Positions 20 through 23,925 of a DNA stretch of 64,000 bases are shown here, piece by piece; the first letter of the stretch is position 1, and every line of letters begins with the position of its first letter. This DNA is from a candidate division LCP-89 bacterium B3_LCP (GTDB taxonomy: Bacteria > Electryoneota > B3-LCP). The stretch is taken from assembly GCA_005223185.1 (NCBI GenBank), contig NJBN01000003.1, forward strand, positions 310,001-374,000, given 5' to 3'. The notes under the pieces were generated by a model, which made no database searches, was not told the DNA's origin, and was given only the letters and a program-made list of their open reading frames with translations. Both the position numbers and the translations under genes were made by a program.

Positions 20-2488
20 TCACTTCATCAGCACCATCTTACCTGTGAGGTAGGTTGGATTCCCCGAATCCGACGCTTCCAACCGATATACATATATCCC
101 CGAAACTAATCCCGAGCCATCGAAGGTGACCTCGTGTAAACCCGCATCCCGCCAGCCGTTGACAAGCTCGGTGACCAAGCGGCCGGATATGTCGTAGATG
201 GACAGGTTCACGAGACTTGCAACTGGTAGCTGGTAACTGAGAGCTGTCGCCGGGTTGAAGGGGTTGGGATAGGGGTGATTAAATGTGTATTCGGAAGGAG
301 GTTCGGATTCAAATATGACCTCTTGGAATTCCTCTCCTGTACAAATCCAATCTGATGGCGATCCCAATCCGCCAGGGTATGTAAATTGGTCACCCCCCGT
401 TTTTTCAAAGGTAAAAGTATCATAGTGGTCAACGGACCATGGATAGGTACCTACATAGGCATAGTAGGTATAGGTTCCTGCGGGAGCGAAATCGGGAACT
501 TCCTGAGTGCGATCACGATCAACACTGGTAAATGCCGGTAGTGAGTAATCAAGCAGGGTTATTATCGGCACAACTCCAACCTCAGGCAATCTGATATCAG
601 TCCACAGATCAAACGTCTGCGCAGTTGAACTGAAGTTTTCGACCATGATGTTAAAATCGAAGGAGCCCCCACTCTGGGGAATAACTATAGGAGGATTGTA
701 GGGTGTCAGCGTTACACCCACCAAGAGAGGCGCTTCGCCCGTTCCCTGTAACACGACCAGCACTGGTTCATCGTTATTTTCGATGGTCAGGATTTCATCA
801 TAGAAGATAGCTTCTAATGGACTAAAGTAAACGGAGACTAAAAGGCTATCTCCAGGTACGAGTATGCTGTCTGCAGGATTAAAATCGGTACTGAAGCATG
901 GATCGCTTGTGGATAGGTAATACAACACGAGAGTGCCTTCACCAATGTTATAGATCGTCAGAGGCATACTCTCCTGGTAGCCTATCGGTACTATACCAAA
1001 ATCCAGCAGATTAGTTGATAATTCTATATTGGATTCCGGCGTGACGTATGTCGAATCGAAGTAGAAAGCCCCTATATCGGCTATCGTACTGTCCGGATCG
1101 AATGGATAGCTTGGATCACCGGCGTCTATGCAGGGGGAATCCTCGGTGAGATGGAAATCCCCTCCCCACTGATCAACGAATGAGGGATTCAGGTAGATAT
1201 TGTGAAACACATCGCAGGAATCTCCATTGAAGTTGGTGGTGATCAATGGACCAAGACTGGCAGGAATTGAAGTCCCGCTGAAATTACCCTCGGCATTATA
1301 ATAGAAATCGCTGTAGGTCACTGTTGTACTGCCCGAAACTTCAAAATGGATGCCCGCACCGCCATTATTATTTGCCACGATATTATTTACGAGAGCTGCA
1401 GTCGAGGCTCCGATAGAAATACCCGCTCCTCCTCCCCAGGGATATGGATGATTATTACCCACAATAGTACAGTGCTCGAGGCTCCCATTTGAATTGAGAT
1501 CGACATCGATTCCGCCACCATAAACTCCATTCGCCGTGTTATCATGAATGACACACCGCGATACATTAAAAACAGCTGAGTTAACAATCCTGATTCCCCC
1601 ACCACTTTCAGCAGCAACGTTGTTGTTAATAATGCATCCGCTCATCGTGAGGTTTGCGCCGCTACCACCAATCGATAATCCTCCACCCCCGCCCTGTTGA
1701 GTAATATTCCAGCCAATTACGCTGTATTCAATGATAGGACTACAATCGCCTGAGCAGCCAATTCCACCGCCGGCAGCAGTACTCGTTGAGTTACCAAGTA
1801 TGGAGCAATAGCTGATAATTGGATCACAACCATTCCAAAAACTGATCCCTCCGCCATAATGTGCAATGTTCTCATTGATGATGCAATAACTGATGATCGG
1901 GTCACAATTATTCTCAAATTGTATCCCACCGCCACCAGCACTCGTTGTGTTCCTGTTAATGGAGGAATAGCGTATCAGCGGGCTGGAATTCGTTAGGTAT
2001 ATACCTGCTCCGCCTGCATACCATCCGGTAGATGAATTATTCCTGATCGAGGAATGACTGATGACTGGATTAGAGTTCTCACAGTAGACACCTCCACCCT
2101 TGGCATCCGATTGTGATCCGGTCGCATTGCCGTACTGGATAATACAGTAGGATAGATGACTGCTGTCTGGGGCATCGATGAACCGGATACTATGCCAACC
2201 TTCAGTGGTATCTGCGGCGGTGAAGCGTATTGAATCCCCTTCGGATCCAATAGCGTCGAGGTAACCGTTGACGATAAGTTTGTAGTAATCCTGGAATATG
2301 ACGTCCACACCTGGTCCGATATTAAGTGATGAATCCGCATGAACAGTAATTTGACCATCAATCAAGTAAGGTGAGCCAGTAGATTCCCAGATGCCGGACA
2401 CATGTCCCTCGGGTATAGTTGTCTGCGCCGAAGTGAACGAAGTCACCAGCGCACACCATAAGAAACCCATCAACATTCTGAAATCCAT
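20..2488 (-). CDS. Secreted beta-helix protein with T9SS-type sorting domain
   Basis: Exported surface protein of 822 residues with no recognisable catalytic site. It has a signal peptide (residues 1-21, ending TSA), then an N-terminal module with GPGVDVIFQ and GWHSIRF. A right-handed parallel beta-helix follows (about 100-430), built from turns of the type GGGIYCxNSxPxIxxC. Next come an ASH/HYDIN-like Ig domain (about 485-590, with DFGIVPIG), the Ig-like module shared by its neighbours (about 595-710, GGSFDFNI to DTFTFEK), and the sorting domain (last ~85 residues, YPNPFNP to KMVLMK). Such CTDs are known to direct T9SS export and surface attachment. The start is supported by AGAGGAGG six nucleotides upstream and a perfect promoter at 2536-2564. 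Its ligand or substrate is unknown. Confidence 0.9.
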   Translation of the reverse strand: MDFRMLMGFLWCALVTSFTSAQTTIPEGHVSGIWESTGSPYLIDGQITVHADSSLNIGPGVDVIFQDYYKLIVNGYLDAIGSEGDSIRFTAADTTEGWHSIRFIDAPDSSHLSYCIIQYGNATGSQSDAKGGGVYCENSNPVISHSSIRNNSSTGWYAGGAGIYLTNSSPLIRYSSINRNTTSAGGGGIQFENNCDPIISYCIINENIAHYGGGISFWNGCDPIISYCSILGNSTSTAAGGGIGCSGDCSPIIEYSVIGWNITQQGGGGGLSIGGSGANLTMSGCIINNNVAAESGGGIRIVNSAVFNVSRCVIHDNTANGVYGGGIDVDLNSNGSLEHCTIVGNNHPYPWGGGAGISIGASTAALVNNIVANNNGGAGIHFEVSGSTTVTYSDFYYNAEGNFSGTSIPASLGPLITTNFNGDSCDVFHNIYLNPSFVDQWGGDFHLTEDSPCIDAGDPSYPFDPDSTIADIGAFYFDSTYVTPESNIELSTNLLDFGIVPIGYQESMPLTIYNIGEGTLVLYYLSTSDPCFSTDFNPADSILVPGDSLLVSVYFSPLEAIFYDEILTIENNDEPVLVVLQGTGEAPLLVGVTLTPYNPPIVIPQSGGSFDFNIMVENFSSTAQTFDLWTDIRLPEVGVVPIITLLDYSLPAFTSVDRDRTQEVPDFAPAGTYTYYAYVGTYPWSVDHYDTFTFEKTGGDQFTYPGGLGSPSDWICTGEEFQEVIFESEPPSEYTFNHPYPNPFNPATALSYQLPVASLVNLSIYDISGRLVTELVNGWRDAGLHEVTFDGSGLVSGIYVYRLEASDSGNPTYLTGKMVLMK

Positions 2489-9572: not shown

Positions 9573-12098
9573 TTATTTCAGCAGCACCATCTTCCCATTA
9601 GCTACAAACTTTCCTATCTTCAACCGGTAGATATACACCCCCGAAGCCAATCCTGATCCTTCGAAAGTTACCTCATGGGTTCCGGCCTCGCACCAGCGGT
9701 CTACTATTGAGGCTGATTTCAAATCCGCAACCATACACCCAGAAATATCAAATACGTCCAGCTTTACCCAATCCGCCTCAGGCAGGTCAAAGCAAAGGGT
9801 GGTCGTAGAGTTAAAGGGATTAGGGTAGTTCTGATGAAGCAAATATGATTCAGGAATTCGCATACTGGCGGATTGCCTCCCAGCTACGGCAAAATCCTCG
9901 AAGTATCCTCCTGTATTAAACCATTCGGCGAATCCATCTAAACCATTTGAGTCCAGCTTTTCGAAAAGGAAATGATCTATGGACGTATCTGCGCCGACAA
10001 CAGCGTAAGCATTGTAAAAATACCTTCCCGCCGGAGCTGCTGGTGGGACATTCTGATTCCTCAACCGGCTGGCGGTGAATTGCGGCATTAGCGTCACCGA
10101 AACTGGGCCTAATACCGGTCCGTAGATCGTCAAGTTTGGCATAGTTACATCACACCAGATCTGAGTTGTATGCAACACTGAATCAATATTTGTGGCCTGA
10201 ATATCAAAGTCAAAGCTCCCTCCTTCTGCTTGAATCTGGATGGGTGTGTTGTAGGGAGTCAGTAATATGCGCACCGGCTTGCTCTGATCGAAGTAATAGC
10301 ATCCCATATCCGCTCGAGTGCCATCTGGGTCGCTGAATTGGGGATCTGGATCCCCAGAGTTTATACATGGAGAATCCCATTGCAGTCTGTAGTCGCTCTG
10401 CCCAACATTGACGAATGAAGGATCTTGATTGATGTTGCCGATGCCCGGCCAAAACTGTTCAATATTGCTGTATGTTGCTTGCACATTAGACCCGGCAGTT
10501 TGAAAGATCTGTTGTGGTGCATTTGCCCAGAGAATACAGTTTCGTAACTCAGGGTTTGAGCTGGTGCTGTAAAACCCACCACCAATTGATGCGTTATTGA
10601 AGGTGATCGTATTTTTATTCATAGGCACATTGATAAGGTTAAAATAGATCCCTCCACCGCTGCCAGAAGCCGTATTATCACTGATCTCGTTGAATTCGAT
10701 TATGCTGGGACTGGATGAACAGTAAACACCGCCACCATCTGCTGCAAAATTTTCGCTTATGGCGTTGCCGCTGATACCGGGGCTGGAACCATTGTTGCAG
10801 TTAATTCCACCACCTGAACCGGCTGTATTTGCGTAAATGAGGTTATAGCTGATACTGGGACTGGAAGATGTACAATTAATCCCACCGCCGAAAGAAGTAG
10901 CTCCATTTCTGCTAATGGTATTACCACTGATAATGGGATTGGAAGAAGTACAGTTTATCCCACCGCCGGAACTGGCTGAATTTCCCTTGATTGTGTTGTA
11001 GCTTATGGTGAGGTTGGAATTATAGCAGTGAATTCCACCGCCGCCATCAGCCGAATTTTCGCTGATAGTATTGCCGTTTATGGTAATGCTGGAAGAGTTA
11101 CAGTAAATTCCACCGCCGAAGCCGCCCATATAACCTGAAACTGTATTTGTGCTGATTGTATTGCCAATTATGCTGGAGTTGGAATCAAGGCCGCTGCAGT
11201 AAATTCCGCCACCGTATGCTGGATAGGGTTCAAATGAATGAATGGCTGTATTTCCGCTGATGGTGTTGCCGTTAATAGCGATACTGGAACTGCTACAGTG
11301 AATCCCGCCGCCGTAATACACGGCTGAATTTTCGTTGAGGCTGTTGTCGATGATAGAGATGCTGGAACCAGTACAGTATATTCCGCCGCCATATGTTGCT
11401 GAATTCATACAAATGGCATTATTGGCGATTGTGAGAGCTGAATTATCGCAGTAAATCCCGCCGCCGTAAGGCCCGCTTGAATTTCCGTTGATAGTGTTGT
11501 CGCTGATGATAAGGTTTGATCCATCACAATAAATACCGCCACCATTACCATAGTTAGCTGAATTTCCGCTGATGATGCAGCCGCCGATTATGGGACTGGA
11601 ATCGTAACAGTAAATCCCGCCGCCACCGCCGTCCCAGAATGATGCATTTCCGCTGATAGTGCAGTTGACAAAGCTCGGGTTGGAGTTAGCACAATAAATA
11701 CCCCCGCCGTAACAATCTGGACTACTTCCAGTGGCACGTCCGTACTGGACGATACAATAAGATAGGTGGCTGCTATCCGGTGCACCGATAAACCTAATAC
11801 CGTGCCAGCCCTCGGTGGAATTATCTGCCGTGAATAGAACCGAATCAGCCTCTGTCCCTACCGCTTCCAACCAGCCATTTACAATCAGCTTGTAATGTCC
11901 CTGGAAGATCACATCAACCCCCGGATCTATAACCAGCGTCTGATCCGCAGGTACTGTTATTTCGCCTTCAACCAGGTAAGGTGAACCAGCTGCTGTCCAG
12001 GTACCAGAAACTTCTCCACCTGGTATAATGGTTTGCGCAAAAACGAAGGAGATTAGTGTAAGTTCGCTTAATAAAACAAACAGAATGTTTCTGAACAT
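9573..12098 (-). CDS. Large secreted beta-helix protein with T9SS-type sorting domain
   Basis: Exported protein of 841 residues from this start (MFRNILFVLLSEL to FAQ signal peptide; GGAGG five to six nucleotides upstream, within the four-codon extension of the longer frame). The N-terminal module contains YCIVQYGRATG-SSPDCY-GGGIYC, the site that aligns without gaps with the UGA site of the two plus-strand paralogues. About eighteen beta-helix turns follow (GGGIYCxxSSxxINGNTISxNSA). Then come CINSGDPDPQFSDPDGTRADMG, the shared Ig-like module (GGSFDFDIQATN to DHFLFEK) and the sorting domain (NYPNPFNSTT to KMVLLK). No catalytic residues are recognisable. Confidence 0.88.
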   Translation of the reverse strand: MFRNILFVLLSELTLISFVFAQTIIPGGEVSGTWTAAGSPYLVEGEITVPADQTLVIDPGVDVIFQGHYKLIVNGWLEAVGTEADSVLFTADNSTEGWHGIRFIGAPDSSHLSYCIVQYGRATGSSPDCYGGGIYCANSNPSFVNCTISGNASFWDGGGGGIYCYDSSPIIGGCIISGNSANYGNGGGIYCDGSNLIISDNTINGNSSGPYGGGIYCDNSALTIANNAICMNSATYGGGIYCTGSSISIIDNSLNENSAVYYGGGIHCSSSSIAINGNTISGNTAIHSFEPYPAYGGGIYCSGLDSNSSIIGNTISTNTVSGYMGGFGGGIYCNSSSITINGNTISENSADGGGGIHCYNSNLTISYNTIKGNSASSGGGINCTSSNPIISGNTISRNGATSFGGGINCTSSSPSISYNLIYANTAGSGGGINCNNGSSPGISGNAISENFAADGGGVYCSSSPSIIEFNEISDNTASGSGGGIYFNLINVPMNKNTITFNNASIGGGFYSTSSNPELRNCILWANAPQQIFQTAGSNVQATYSNIEQFWPGIGNINQDPSFVNVGQSDYRLQWDSPCINSGDPDPQFSDPDGTRADMGCYYFDQSKPVRILLTPYNTPIQIQAEGGSFDFDIQATNIDSVLHTTQIWCDVTMPNLTIYGPVLGPVSVTLMPQFTASRLRNQNVPPAAPAGRYFYNAYAVVGADTSIDHFLFEKLDSNGLDGFAEWFNTGGYFEDFAVAGRQSASMRIPESYLLHQNYPNPFNSTTTLCFDLPEADWVKLDVFDISGCMVADLKSASIVDRWCEAGTHEVTFEGSGLASGVYIYRLKIGKFVANGKMVLLK

Positions 12099-19399: not shown

Positions 19400-20824
19400 A
19401 TGTTTCAGATTAAATCATTAATTACAGCTTATGCACTGCTTGTTGTTTTAGCAGTAACAACTTCCTTTGCGCAGCCGATAATCAGCGGACAACAGTCGGG
19501 TACTTTGGGACCCGAGACTTACATTGTGAATGGTGACATACAGGTGCTTTCCGGTCAAACGTTGACCATCATGCCAGGAACCGTTTTCCTGCATAACGGC
19601 AACCATACCTGGGAGATATCCGGTCAGTTAAACGCCGAAGGCACCGAAACGGACAGCATCAAATTCGTGCGCCAGGATCCCATCGATGAACACCGCTGGG
19701 GTGGCATTCGCTTTCTTTCAGGATCATCCGATCAAAGTTCGATTGATTACTGCGTGATAGATCACTGTTTTCACGATATATTCCCATTTGGCAACTATGG
19801 AGCGGGAATATTCATTGACGGAATATATTTAGAGATAAGCAACTCTCGAATTTCAAACTGCCTGAATAACTGGGAAGGTGCTGGTATTTACGCTTATAAT
19901 GCCACCGTTATCACTTCCCATTGCCTGATCGTGGATAACAGCACCGAGGGTGAAAGCAACGGTGGAGGGATATATCTTTTTAATTGCCCACAAGGAGTCA
20001 TAGAATATTCGGTAATTGCCAGAAACGCAGCTACCGGCACGTGAGACCAATGTGGAGGTGGCGGGATCCGCTGCGATAATTCACCAACTGAGATCATCTA
20101 CAATCAGATTTTCGATAATACCTCGCTGATGTTCGGTGGGGGTATTTATGCGGATTCATGTTCTGTGCATCTGGTGAACAATACCATATCACAGAATGTA
20201 TCGGAGGTAATGGAACCTGAAAGTAGGGGTGGCGGGATCTTCGCCAAGCCGACGGCCGATTATTATGGTGAAAACAATATAATCTACGATAACGATGCTT
20301 TTGGAGATCCGGAGTATTCCGGTACTGCCGCACTTAATTATAGTTGCTGTGCAACGACCCTATCTGGCACGGACAACATCACTGATGACCCTCTGTTTGT
20401 CGATCCTTCAGTCGATGATTTCAATTTACAGGAGTTATCACCCTGCATTGATACCGGTGACCCACTAAGCCCCTATGATCCGGACGGCACGCGCGTAGAT
20501 ATGGGAGCACTCTATTACGATCAGTCTGCCGGTGTGATCATCAGCCAGATCGATCATCCATTTGAGTTCAGACTGGAACCTGCATATCCCAATCCCTTCA
20601 ATCCTGTTACTAATATAGCTTTCAGTCTGCCAATAGCAGGGGATGTGATATTAGGAGTCTACAATATACAAGGATCTCAAGTGGCTACACTCCTTGATGA
20701 ATGGCAAAATGCAGGTCGCCATGATGTGACCTTCGTCGCAAATAACCTTAGTTCAGGATTGTATATTGTAAGGTTACAAGCGGGAGAGTTCCATACCTCC
20801 CAAAAAATTGTATTGATGAAATGA
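19400..20824 (+). CDS. Beta-helix T9SS-type cargo with in-frame UGA, copy 1 (candidate selenoprotein)
   Basis: One reading frame of 474 residues broken only by TGA at 20042-20044 (codon 215). The first part has a signal peptide (1-25, SFAQ), an N-terminal module (TIMPGTVFL, HRWGGIRFL) and beta-helix turns (GAGIYAYN, GGGIYLFN). After ...ARNAATGT-UGA-DQC the same helix continues as GGGGIRCDNSP and GGGIYADSC. It closes with CIDTGDPLSPYDPDGTRVDMG, and the sorting domain (YPNPFNPVT to KIVLMK) follows. The UGA falls in a turn between helix rungs and makes U-x-x-C. In the 9573-12098 paralogue the aligned turn has Ser for U and Cys for Cys. Truncation at UGA would leave half a helix without a sorting domain. 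The translation start has AAGG upstream. Confidence 0.75.
20058..20074 (+). promoter_or_regulatory. SECIS-like hairpin downstream of in-frame UGA, copy 1
   Basis: GUGGCG (20058-20063) pairs with CGCUGC (20069-20074), with two G-U pairs, leaving the loop GGAUC (20064-20068). The loop starts at +20 after UGA. The loop could be closed further by a G-C pair to GAU. Twenty-six nucleotides from 20051 to 20076 are identical to 21568-21593. Confidence 0.55.
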
Positions 20825-20925: not shown

Positions 20926-23925
20926 ATGGAAAAACTGCTGAAAGTTTTAATGCTGTGCCTGCTGGTAGCGGGTTTTGCTCAGGCACAGACGTACATCAGT
21001 GGACCGCAGTCAGGAACGCTCGGACCCGGTCTCTACATAGTAGAGGGCAACATCCGGGTGATGCCCGGAGAAACGCTCACCATAGTTCCTGGTACGGACC
21101 TGCAACACAACGGCAACTGGAAATGGGAGATCTACGGACAGCTGAATGCTGAAGGTACCGAAAGCGACAGTATCTATTTTGTCCGTCAAAATCCTGTGGG
21201 TGAACATCGATGGGCGAGTCTTCGCTTTATGGAAGGTGCAGCCGACGCCAGCACGATAGACTACTGCGTCATCGACAACTGCAATATTCCCAGCGGTACT
21301 CCAAGCACCAAGTTAGGCGGCGGTATCTACACGAATGGTGTCGATATAACCGTGACCAACAGCAGAATATCTAACTGTGACGCCTACTGGCACGGCGGCG
21401 GTATTTACGCCAGTTCTGCCAATATCGTGGTAGACTATTGTCTGATCGTCGACAATACGGCTACTTCGGGCGCAAATGGCGGGGGAATTTATCTGATGAA
21501 CTGCGATAATGCAGTCATCACTAACTCCGAGATCGCGCGAAATAGCGCCACCGGTACGTGAGGTACCTGTGGAGGTGGCGGGATCCGCTGCGAAAATTCC
21601 CCAGCTACAATTACTTACAACCTCATCTACGACAACACTTCCGTTTACTTTGGAGCCGGTATTTTAGCTACTGGCTGCACTCCCGAAGTTATCAACAACA
21701 CAATCGCAGGGAACAGATGTACTTCAACTTTACCAGCCGCTAATGGTGGTGGTCTCTGGGCAAACGAAGGTGCATCATTTGAGGGCATCAACAACATTCT
21801 ATACTACAACTATGCCACGAATAATTCGGAATATGCTGGTGATGTCAGCTTCAGCTATTCCTGTTGCTCAGTTGAATTCGATGGTGAAGAAAACATCACC
21901 GATGCACCGGAATTCGTTGATCCTCAGAATTTCGATTTCAACTTGATGGTGAATTCTCCCTGCATAGACAATGGCAGTCCATTTAGTCCGCTTGATCCTG
22001 ACGGTACCTATGCTGATATGGGCGCCCTCTATTTTGACCAGGGAACCACAGCACAGCTCCGCCCGGCAGCGCCGAGCGATTTTACAGTTAGCCATAATAA
22101 TACACTGTTAATCGCATCTATGGACTGGACTAATCCCAGTCTGAATGCCATCGGAGATCCCCTTTCCGACCTGACAGGTGTAAAGGTGTATCGAAATGGC
22201 GATTTAATTGCCGACCTGACTGACGTGGTCATGGGTGAATCCTACGCTTACGATGATGATGCGGTACCGGTTGCCGGTATGTATGATTACAAACTGGCGC
22301 CCTATAACTCGTATGGTGAAGGCCTGTGGATTCAAGTATCCGCCTGGATCGGTCTGGATACACCGGGTGAGGTTCAGAACGTCATCGCCACACCCGATCC
22401 TAACGAATTGCTGGAATGTACCATCACCTGGGATGCACCGGTAGAAGGCGAACACAGCGGCTACTGGCCCACCGGATCATGGACAGGGCAGAGAGTATAT
22501 CGTGACAACGTCATGATTGTCGATCTGCTTGGTACCAATACCTCATACGTTGATAATACCATGCCCATAGCCGATTGGTATAGCTACGGTGTATCATATT
22601 ACAACGATTCAGGTGAAGGACCCATCACTACTGCAGATCCCGATCCGATCTTTGTGGGACCGCCACAGTTTGCTGAGATTCCGTACGGTTGGGTCGAAAT
22701 CGCCGGAATTGGAACCAACACCGGAATCACCATGGACGACCAAGTACAGGGACCATTTGATATAGGTTTCGCCTTCCCGTCCTACGGGTACAGCGCTTAC
22801 AGCCAGATCTACGTCTGTTCCAACGGCTGGGCGTCGTTCAACGCGGAAACCTACGGTGCTTTTACTAACGCCCCCATTCCCACTGCTGCGACACCAAACA
22901 ACCTGGTTTGTCCTTACTGGGATGATATGAATCCCACCCAGGGTGGGGATATATGGTACATGTACGATGAAGCCAATGAGCGTTTCATTGTCGAATGGAG
23001 AAATGTTCCTCATTACAGTACAGGTGGTAGTTATACCTTTGAGATAATCCTGTACCCCAATGGCGACATAGACTTCATGTACGCTCAATTGACGCCCGGA
23101 ACTGCTAATTCGGCGACGGTAGGATCCGAGAACGCCGATGGGACTGATGGAATCCAGGTTACCTTCGACGGTTCAGGTCCGCTAAATCCTGTCGCTGATA
23201 TGGGAATCAGGATTTATCCAGTTTCCTTAGGAGCACCGGACGTTACCGTTACCATGACACCCATTGGAGCACCTATAGTCCTTCCGGCTGTTGGTGGGAC
23301 ATTCGACTACAACATAGCAGTTACCAACAACGAAAGTTCTGCGGTACCTATGGACGTCTGGGTAATGGTACAATTACCTAACAGCGTCTGGTATGGGCCA
23401 GTGCTGGGTCCTGTTAACATTACCTTACCAGCGACGGTTACCATAGACCGTGATCGTCAGCAGTCAGTGCCTGGTAGTGCACCAACTGGAACCTACAATT
23501 ACGAAGGCCGCGTTGGTTATTATCCCGATGCCGTCTGGCATTCGGATAGCTTCACCTTCGAGAAATCCTCGACAGGTGATGGCGCGATAATCGAGGAGTG
23601 GTTGAATACCGGTGAGTCTTTTGAAGATCTAATGAATCAAATGGCTGCTGAATCTGTTCCGGACGTGTTCTCACTGGGACAGAACTACCCCAACCCCTTC
23701 AACCCGAGCACGACGATTAACTTCAATCTGCCACAGATGGTCAAGGTCAATCTGTCCGTGTATGACGTTAGCGGCAGGCTGGTCGCAACGGTGGTTGACG
23801 GCTATCGCCAGGCTGGCAGTCACGAAGTAACCTTCGATGGTTACGGACTGGCTTCAGGCATGTACATCTACCGGATTCATGCCGGTGATTTCATCGCCAG
23901 CGGCAAGATGGTTATGATCAAGTAA
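20926..23925 (+). CDS. Beta-helix T9SS-type cargo with in-frame UGA, copy 2 (candidate selenoprotein)
   Basis: A 999-residue frame broken only by TGA at 21559-21561 (codon 212). It has a signal peptide (1-20, FAQA), a module (TIVPGTDLQ, HRWASLRF) and a beta-helix. The UGA sits at the same turn as in copy 1: SATGT-UGA-GTC-GGGGIRCENSP, again U-x-x-C. The helix ends with CIDNGSPFSPLDPDGTYADMG. Two FnIII-like domains (about 365-565), a nidogen-like domain (about 570-765; SNGWASFN, CPYWDDMNP), the shared Ig-like module (GGTFDYNI to DSFTFEK) and the sorting domain (YPNPFNPST to KMVMIK) follow. AAAAGGAG lies seven nucleotides before the ATG. Protein-level conservation with copy 1 continues after the UGA while codons differ, which indicates that the downstream part is translated. 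Confidence 0.78.
21575..21591 (+). promoter_or_regulatory. SECIS-like hairpin downstream of in-frame UGA, copy 2
   Basis: Same stem and GGAUC loop as copy 1, with the loop beginning at +20 after UGA. The codons before the block differ (GGT ACC against GAC CAA), and so do those after it. Conservation at the nucleotide level is therefore limited to the hairpin and its edges. Confidence 0.55.

Follow-up and report, generated by a model that had tools for sequence, protein, structure and literature searches.

A lineage-specific family of probable secreted beta-helix selenoproteins in candidate division LCP-89 bacterium B3_LCP, and a possible second selenocysteine insertion system

Two adjacent paralogous genes in the genome of candidate division LCP-89 bacterium B3_LCP each contain an in-frame UGA codon, and each carries the same 26 nucleotides shortly behind it. 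This raises the question of how the codon is read, and of what the shared block contributes to its reading. The window analysed here is a stretch of 64,000 nucleotides of contig NJBN01000003.1 (GCA_005223185.1), to which the coordinates of both genes refer; both lie on the plus strand. Gene 1 (19400–20824) encodes 474 amino acids with a signal peptide, a right-handed beta helix, a putative selenocysteine (Sec) at residue 215 and a type IX secretion system (T9SS) sorting domain. Translated with TGA as U, it displays Pfam matches to Beta_helix (residues 105–287) and Por_Secre_tail (residues 396–471). Its in-frame UGA (20042–20044, motif TGT-U-DQC-GGGGIRC) aligns with the UGA of 45 homologues, and its terminator is also TGA (20822–20824). 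Gene 2 (20926–23925) encodes 999 amino acids, with the putative Sec at residue 212 (UGA at 21559–21561, motif TGT-U-GTC-GGGGIRC) and, according to Pfam, a NIDO domain and a T9SS sorting domain downstream of it. Ordinary beta-helix genes lacking the UGA, relatives of this family, are found on the minus strand of the same window (1922–2098 and 10647–11465).

The initial annotation had described the block at 20051–20076 as identical base for base to 21568–21593, with differing codons on either side, and both statements hold; the shared sequence is TGTGGAGGTGGCGGGATCCGCTGCGA. Over 372 aligned codons the two genes are 54% identical in amino acids and 57% in nucleotides, and only 39% of the 196 identical residues use the same codon. 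Within this background the block forms a run of eight identical codons, the next longest runs in the pair being three codons, and no stretch of comparable identity was found elsewhere in the two genes. A run of at least eight is expected by chance with a probability of 0.0012 (permutation), or 0.0018 when the permutation is restricted to whether identical residues share a codon. The block contains the hairpin GUGGCG-GGAUC-CGCUGC, at 20058–20074 in gene 1 (arms 20058–20063 and 20069–20074, loop GGATC 20064–20068) and at 21575–21591 in gene 2 (arms 21575–21580 and 21586–21591, loop 21581–21585). It is as first described, with the amendment that two of the six pairs in the gene 1 copy are G.U wobbles; in silico, the hairpin often folds with one additional G-C pair, leaving a GAU triloop. 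The loop does begin 20 nt after the UGA.

Homologues were searched for in the same genome with a 63-amino-acid query around the UGA and without any RNA criterion. Ten places were found, each match containing exactly one TGA, and GGGATC follows the TGA in all ten genes. A covariance (RNA) model added four genes with an in-frame UGA, giving 14 in this genome; four other matches of the model (L059, L062, L065, L066) were dropped, as their TGA is out of frame. RNA model and protein-profile search together list 45 genes with UGA and GGGATC hairpin in 8 of the 39 genomes of the phylum, namely every genome of the same taxonomic family and two genomes of neighbouring families. The UGA is absent from all listed matches in the other 31 genomes. 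Three loci are recorded as side observations. One UGA copy (L020, G000:C16:54956–55078, minus strand) is possibly decaying, as its upstream frame is broken some 20 codons ahead of the UGA. A short-type UGA gene (L129/L072, G003:C298:8026–8217) has the GGGATC and a weaker outer stem. At L286:9000–13300, genes judged by eye to be heterodisulfide-reductase-like and DsrC-like lie between two beta-helix Sec genes.

Every UGA gene examined retains the hairpin, and covariance analysis of 39 sequences finds that it covaries. The six stem pairs form in 98.7% of cells, and two-sided changes occur in 14 cells (mean of shuffled data 2.1). In each of 500 shuffles the pairing, the number of double changes and the covariation score all stayed below the observed values, and when the partner is shifted by one to three columns, pairing falls to 25–65%. 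Examples of covarying arms are GGAGGCG/CGCCTC, GGTGGCG/CGCCAC, GGCAACG/CGTTGC and GCAGTG/TACTGC. Substitutions in the 3′ arm alter the protein (C to L, H or Y) with pairing preserved. Furthermore, Gly-Ile is written GGG-ATC at the hairpin, against only 9 of 190 Gly-Ile pairs elsewhere in the same reading frames. Local gene conversion homogenising the 26 nt, which had been offered as the alternative and which the adjacency of the two paralogues would allow, is thus refuted as a full explanation and retains a negligible probability, because stem pairs covary across genera around an invariant GGGATC, with compensation seen also where the encoded residue is altered, such changes cannot come from gene conversion, and codons are not shared at other conserved residues.

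The proposal of a SECIS-like hairpin under selection at the RNA level is therefore supported both by the homologues and by the lack of comparable identity elsewhere in the pair. Published limits for bacterial SECIS elements (bSECIS) are an apical loop of 3–9 nt, an upper stem of 4–16 bp, at least one G among the two leading loop positions, a UGA-to-loop distance of 16–37 nt and a minimum free energy of at most −7.5 kcal/mol (PMC13188914). All 39 hairpins have a loop of 5 nt (or 3) and form 5–6 of 6 pairs; all 39 carry GGAUC, although GGGATC was itself a requirement when these genes were extracted for counting, as it was not for the first ten. Spacing from UGA to loop is 16 or 19 nt, and the energy limit is reached by 39 of 39 sequences as 45-nt folds after the UGA and by 35 of 39 as minimal hairpins. 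Neither Rfam SECIS_1 nor a relaxed Rfam scan matched the hairpin; SECIS_1 also failed in control genomes, so this result carries little weight. As in the bSECISearch model and the E. coli fdhF type, the hairpin lies in the coding region, 16–37 nt after the UGA, with a G in the first two loop places. The likeness to the fdhF loop noted at the outset is only partial: most SelD genes of the phylum have such a GGA or GGU loop, while the apex of the beta-helix genes is an invariant (G)GAU(C) instead of the usual GG/GU and finds no Rfam match. From its sequence, the (G)GAU(C) hairpin looks like a second SECIS class.

Conservation continues on both sides of the UGA. Amino acid identity is 0.54 downstream and 0.55 upstream, and third-position identity is 0.38 and 0.36, respectively (codon-position identities were used since dS is saturated). 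The T9SS sorting domain lies after the UGA in 12 of 12 full-length genes scanned in the B3_LCP genome. Mechanical open reading frame calls split both window genes, as would be expected if the UGA terminated a short frame and the downstream frame were separate or dead. Such short frames or pseudogenes are very improbable, given a UGA at one site in 45 genes of 8 genomes, a downstream protein under purifying selection, the presence of an ATG in the first 40 codons behind the UGA in only 11 of 39 genes, and an export signal that would be lost with the downstream part.

The UGA, conserved in frame with coding sequence on both sides, is thus probably translated, and the residue has to be considered. 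Reassignment of the code is rejected, since UGA also terminates genes of the family. A suppressor tRNA might insert another residue, for instance Cys or Trp, with the hairpin stimulating readthrough; it could be argued that no Cys/Sec pair points to Sec, and indeed neither the matches that were read from the phylum's 39 genomes nor a scan of genome contigs showed a homologue with Cys at the Sec position. Nearly all selenoprotein families have such a homologue (PMC13188914), and its absence counts against the Sec reading, as do 3 of 39 genes that lack a Cys nearby; Cys homologues are a usual feature of selenoprotein families, not a required one. Insertion of another residue nevertheless appears highly improbable in view of complete Sec machinery in the genome, hairpin geometry that fits a bacterial SECIS, true UGA stops in the same genes (gene 1, and 5 of 30 family terminators) and a UxxC-like context in 36 of 39 genes (31 with UxxC and 5 with UxxxC). 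Since the genome encodes SelA, SelB, SelD and tRNA-Sec, selenocysteine is the best reading of the family's UGA.

The Sec machinery of B3_LCP is present twice: there are two SelA, two SelB and two tRNA-Sec with UCA anticodon, together with a SelD that has an in-frame UGA. Two SelA genes occur in exactly the 8 of 39 genomes of the phylum that contain the beta-helix family and in none of the other 31. Two SelB (7 of 8 family genomes) and two tRNA-Sec (6 of 8) are likewise confined to these genomes among the 39; the shortfalls are in fragmentary genomes, a second SelB being missing from G003 and a second tRNA-Sec from both G010 and G015. Trees of SelB, SelA and tRNA each separate a type II lineage, which includes the single copies of genome family f2, from type I. 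Type II SelB proteins have in common a STRK/SSRK(F/Y)TTP motif and an insertion that precedes the last winged-helix domain. In genome family f1, it is the type II copies of SelB and SelA that evolve more slowly. In B3_LCP, type II SelB, type II tRNA and two UGA genes all lie on contig C18, type I SelB lies on the contig of the window (C16), and type II SelA lies on C7 with a UGA gene; Sec genes therefore share contigs with UGA genes or the window, and mis-binning is unlikely. In G010, type II SelB, SelD and type II tRNA are found together on one contig. A second SelD copy of that genome (L252, G010:C475) has no UGA in an open frame of 738 codons; the genome thus has this copy in addition to the UGA-containing SelD of the type II operon. 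The genomes are related, and the co-occurrence of two sets with the family may go back to a single evolutionary event.

The SelD hairpins vary as well. GC-GG[A/U]-GC is found where a genome has type I alone, and also in the f1 genomes, where the type II tRNA adjoins a SelD whose hairpin looks type I. GCGC-AGUU[A/G]-GCGC is found in all seven f2 genomes, which have type II only (L278–L284), and AGAUU in the type II operon of G010. It is this last loop that the G-GAU-C of the beta-helix genes resembles. This pattern suggests that type II SelB may read G(A/U)U loops and type I SelB GG(A/U) loops, and we lean, with some reserve, towards the type II set being the one that reads the beta-helix hairpin class. 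A second insertion system dedicated to the beta-helix family is likely but unproven. In its full form, we hypothesize two parallel Sec systems per cell, with separate SelA, SelB, tRNA-Sec and loop class (GGW for SelD, GAU for the beta-helix genes), the second dedicated to an expanded exported family; we would place this slightly above even chance. If true, nature would here provide an example of one codon being read, as one amino acid, by two orthogonal machineries.

The most serious competing explanation grants Sec insertion via the hairpin but assigns it to the ordinary machinery, so that the second SelA, SelB and tRNA-Sec would have no dedicated role and would be a redundant remnant or a copy acquired by transfer. 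There is precedent for duplicate Sec operons in Photobacterium profundum 3TCK, which has two complete machineries in one genome (PMC5330540), and f2 genomes keep the type II set without having the beta-helix family. Yet both sets are intact across the family and in f6 and f7, the type II SelB and SelA of f1 evolve more slowly than their type I counterparts, and SelD loops vary with the type of machinery held. Moreover, in contrast to the duplicated operons of P. profundum 3TCK (PMC5330540), the two sets described here are two clades common to relatives, are scattered over the genome, and track one selenoprotein family and a SECIS loop class. We consider a purely redundant second set unlikely, though far from negligible.

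It is highly probable, in our view, that the window genes encode lineage-specific secreted beta-helix selenoproteins, their UGA being translated as Sec via a SelB-bound hairpin before translation proceeds to the T9SS signal. A ribosome arriving at the internal UGA would meet, 16–19 nt downstream, a hairpin with a 6-bp stem and an invariant G-GGAUC apex. SelB bound to this hairpin would bring Sec-tRNA, Sec would be inserted, and translation would run on until the type IX secretion signal at the C-terminus is made. The residue would then occupy a turn on the surface of the beta helix, in most cases within a UxxC motif. Structure prediction yields a beta helix with Sec215 in an inter-strand loop (residues 211–216, pLDDT <50), at low confidence overall (pLDDT 55.6), and a Foldseek search with the predicted structure gave no match at E <= 0.001. 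Fold and export signal are those of right-handed beta-helix proteins (PF13229; NosD/POMP-like) with T9SS sorting domain. In contrast to the non-Sec relatives, which have neither this turn nor a Cys there, the family has an inserted turn bearing the UGA-coded residue. UxxC-type bacterial selenoproteins (119 families, PMC13188914) share the UGA-coded residue and the Cys, two residues on, while the beta-helix family differs in being T9SS-exported, in having no Cys homologues found and in its absence from that list. Sec in this turn may act as an exported redox or metal-binding site at the cell surface, although we put this assignment of activity somewhat below even chance.

B3_LCP (GCA_005223185.1) was among the 20 test genomes of deep-Sep, for which 4 known and 0 new selenoproteins were reported (PMC12013277, Table 2); the 14 UGA genes described here were missed. 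Deep-Sep and most other pipelines lean on Cys homologues, which the beta-helix family lacks here. There is no beta-helix family in the 2026 list of 119 selenoprotein families (PMC13188914), and no second dedicated Sec system was found in the open-licence literature. Judged by their sequences, the beta-helix selenoproteins thus appear to be a previously unlisted family, in an uncultured sediment bacterium.

This would add a multi-gene family of secreted selenoproteins, with 14 members, to a genome credited with 4 selenoproteins. Methods based on Cys/Sec pairs are built to miss such families, which suggests that bacterial selenoproteomes are undercounted. Naturally paired sets of SelB and SECIS could reveal how SelB reads its hairpin and could give orthogonal tools for selenoprotein synthesis. 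For the organisms themselves, the family would place Sec at the cell surface of uncultured bacteria.
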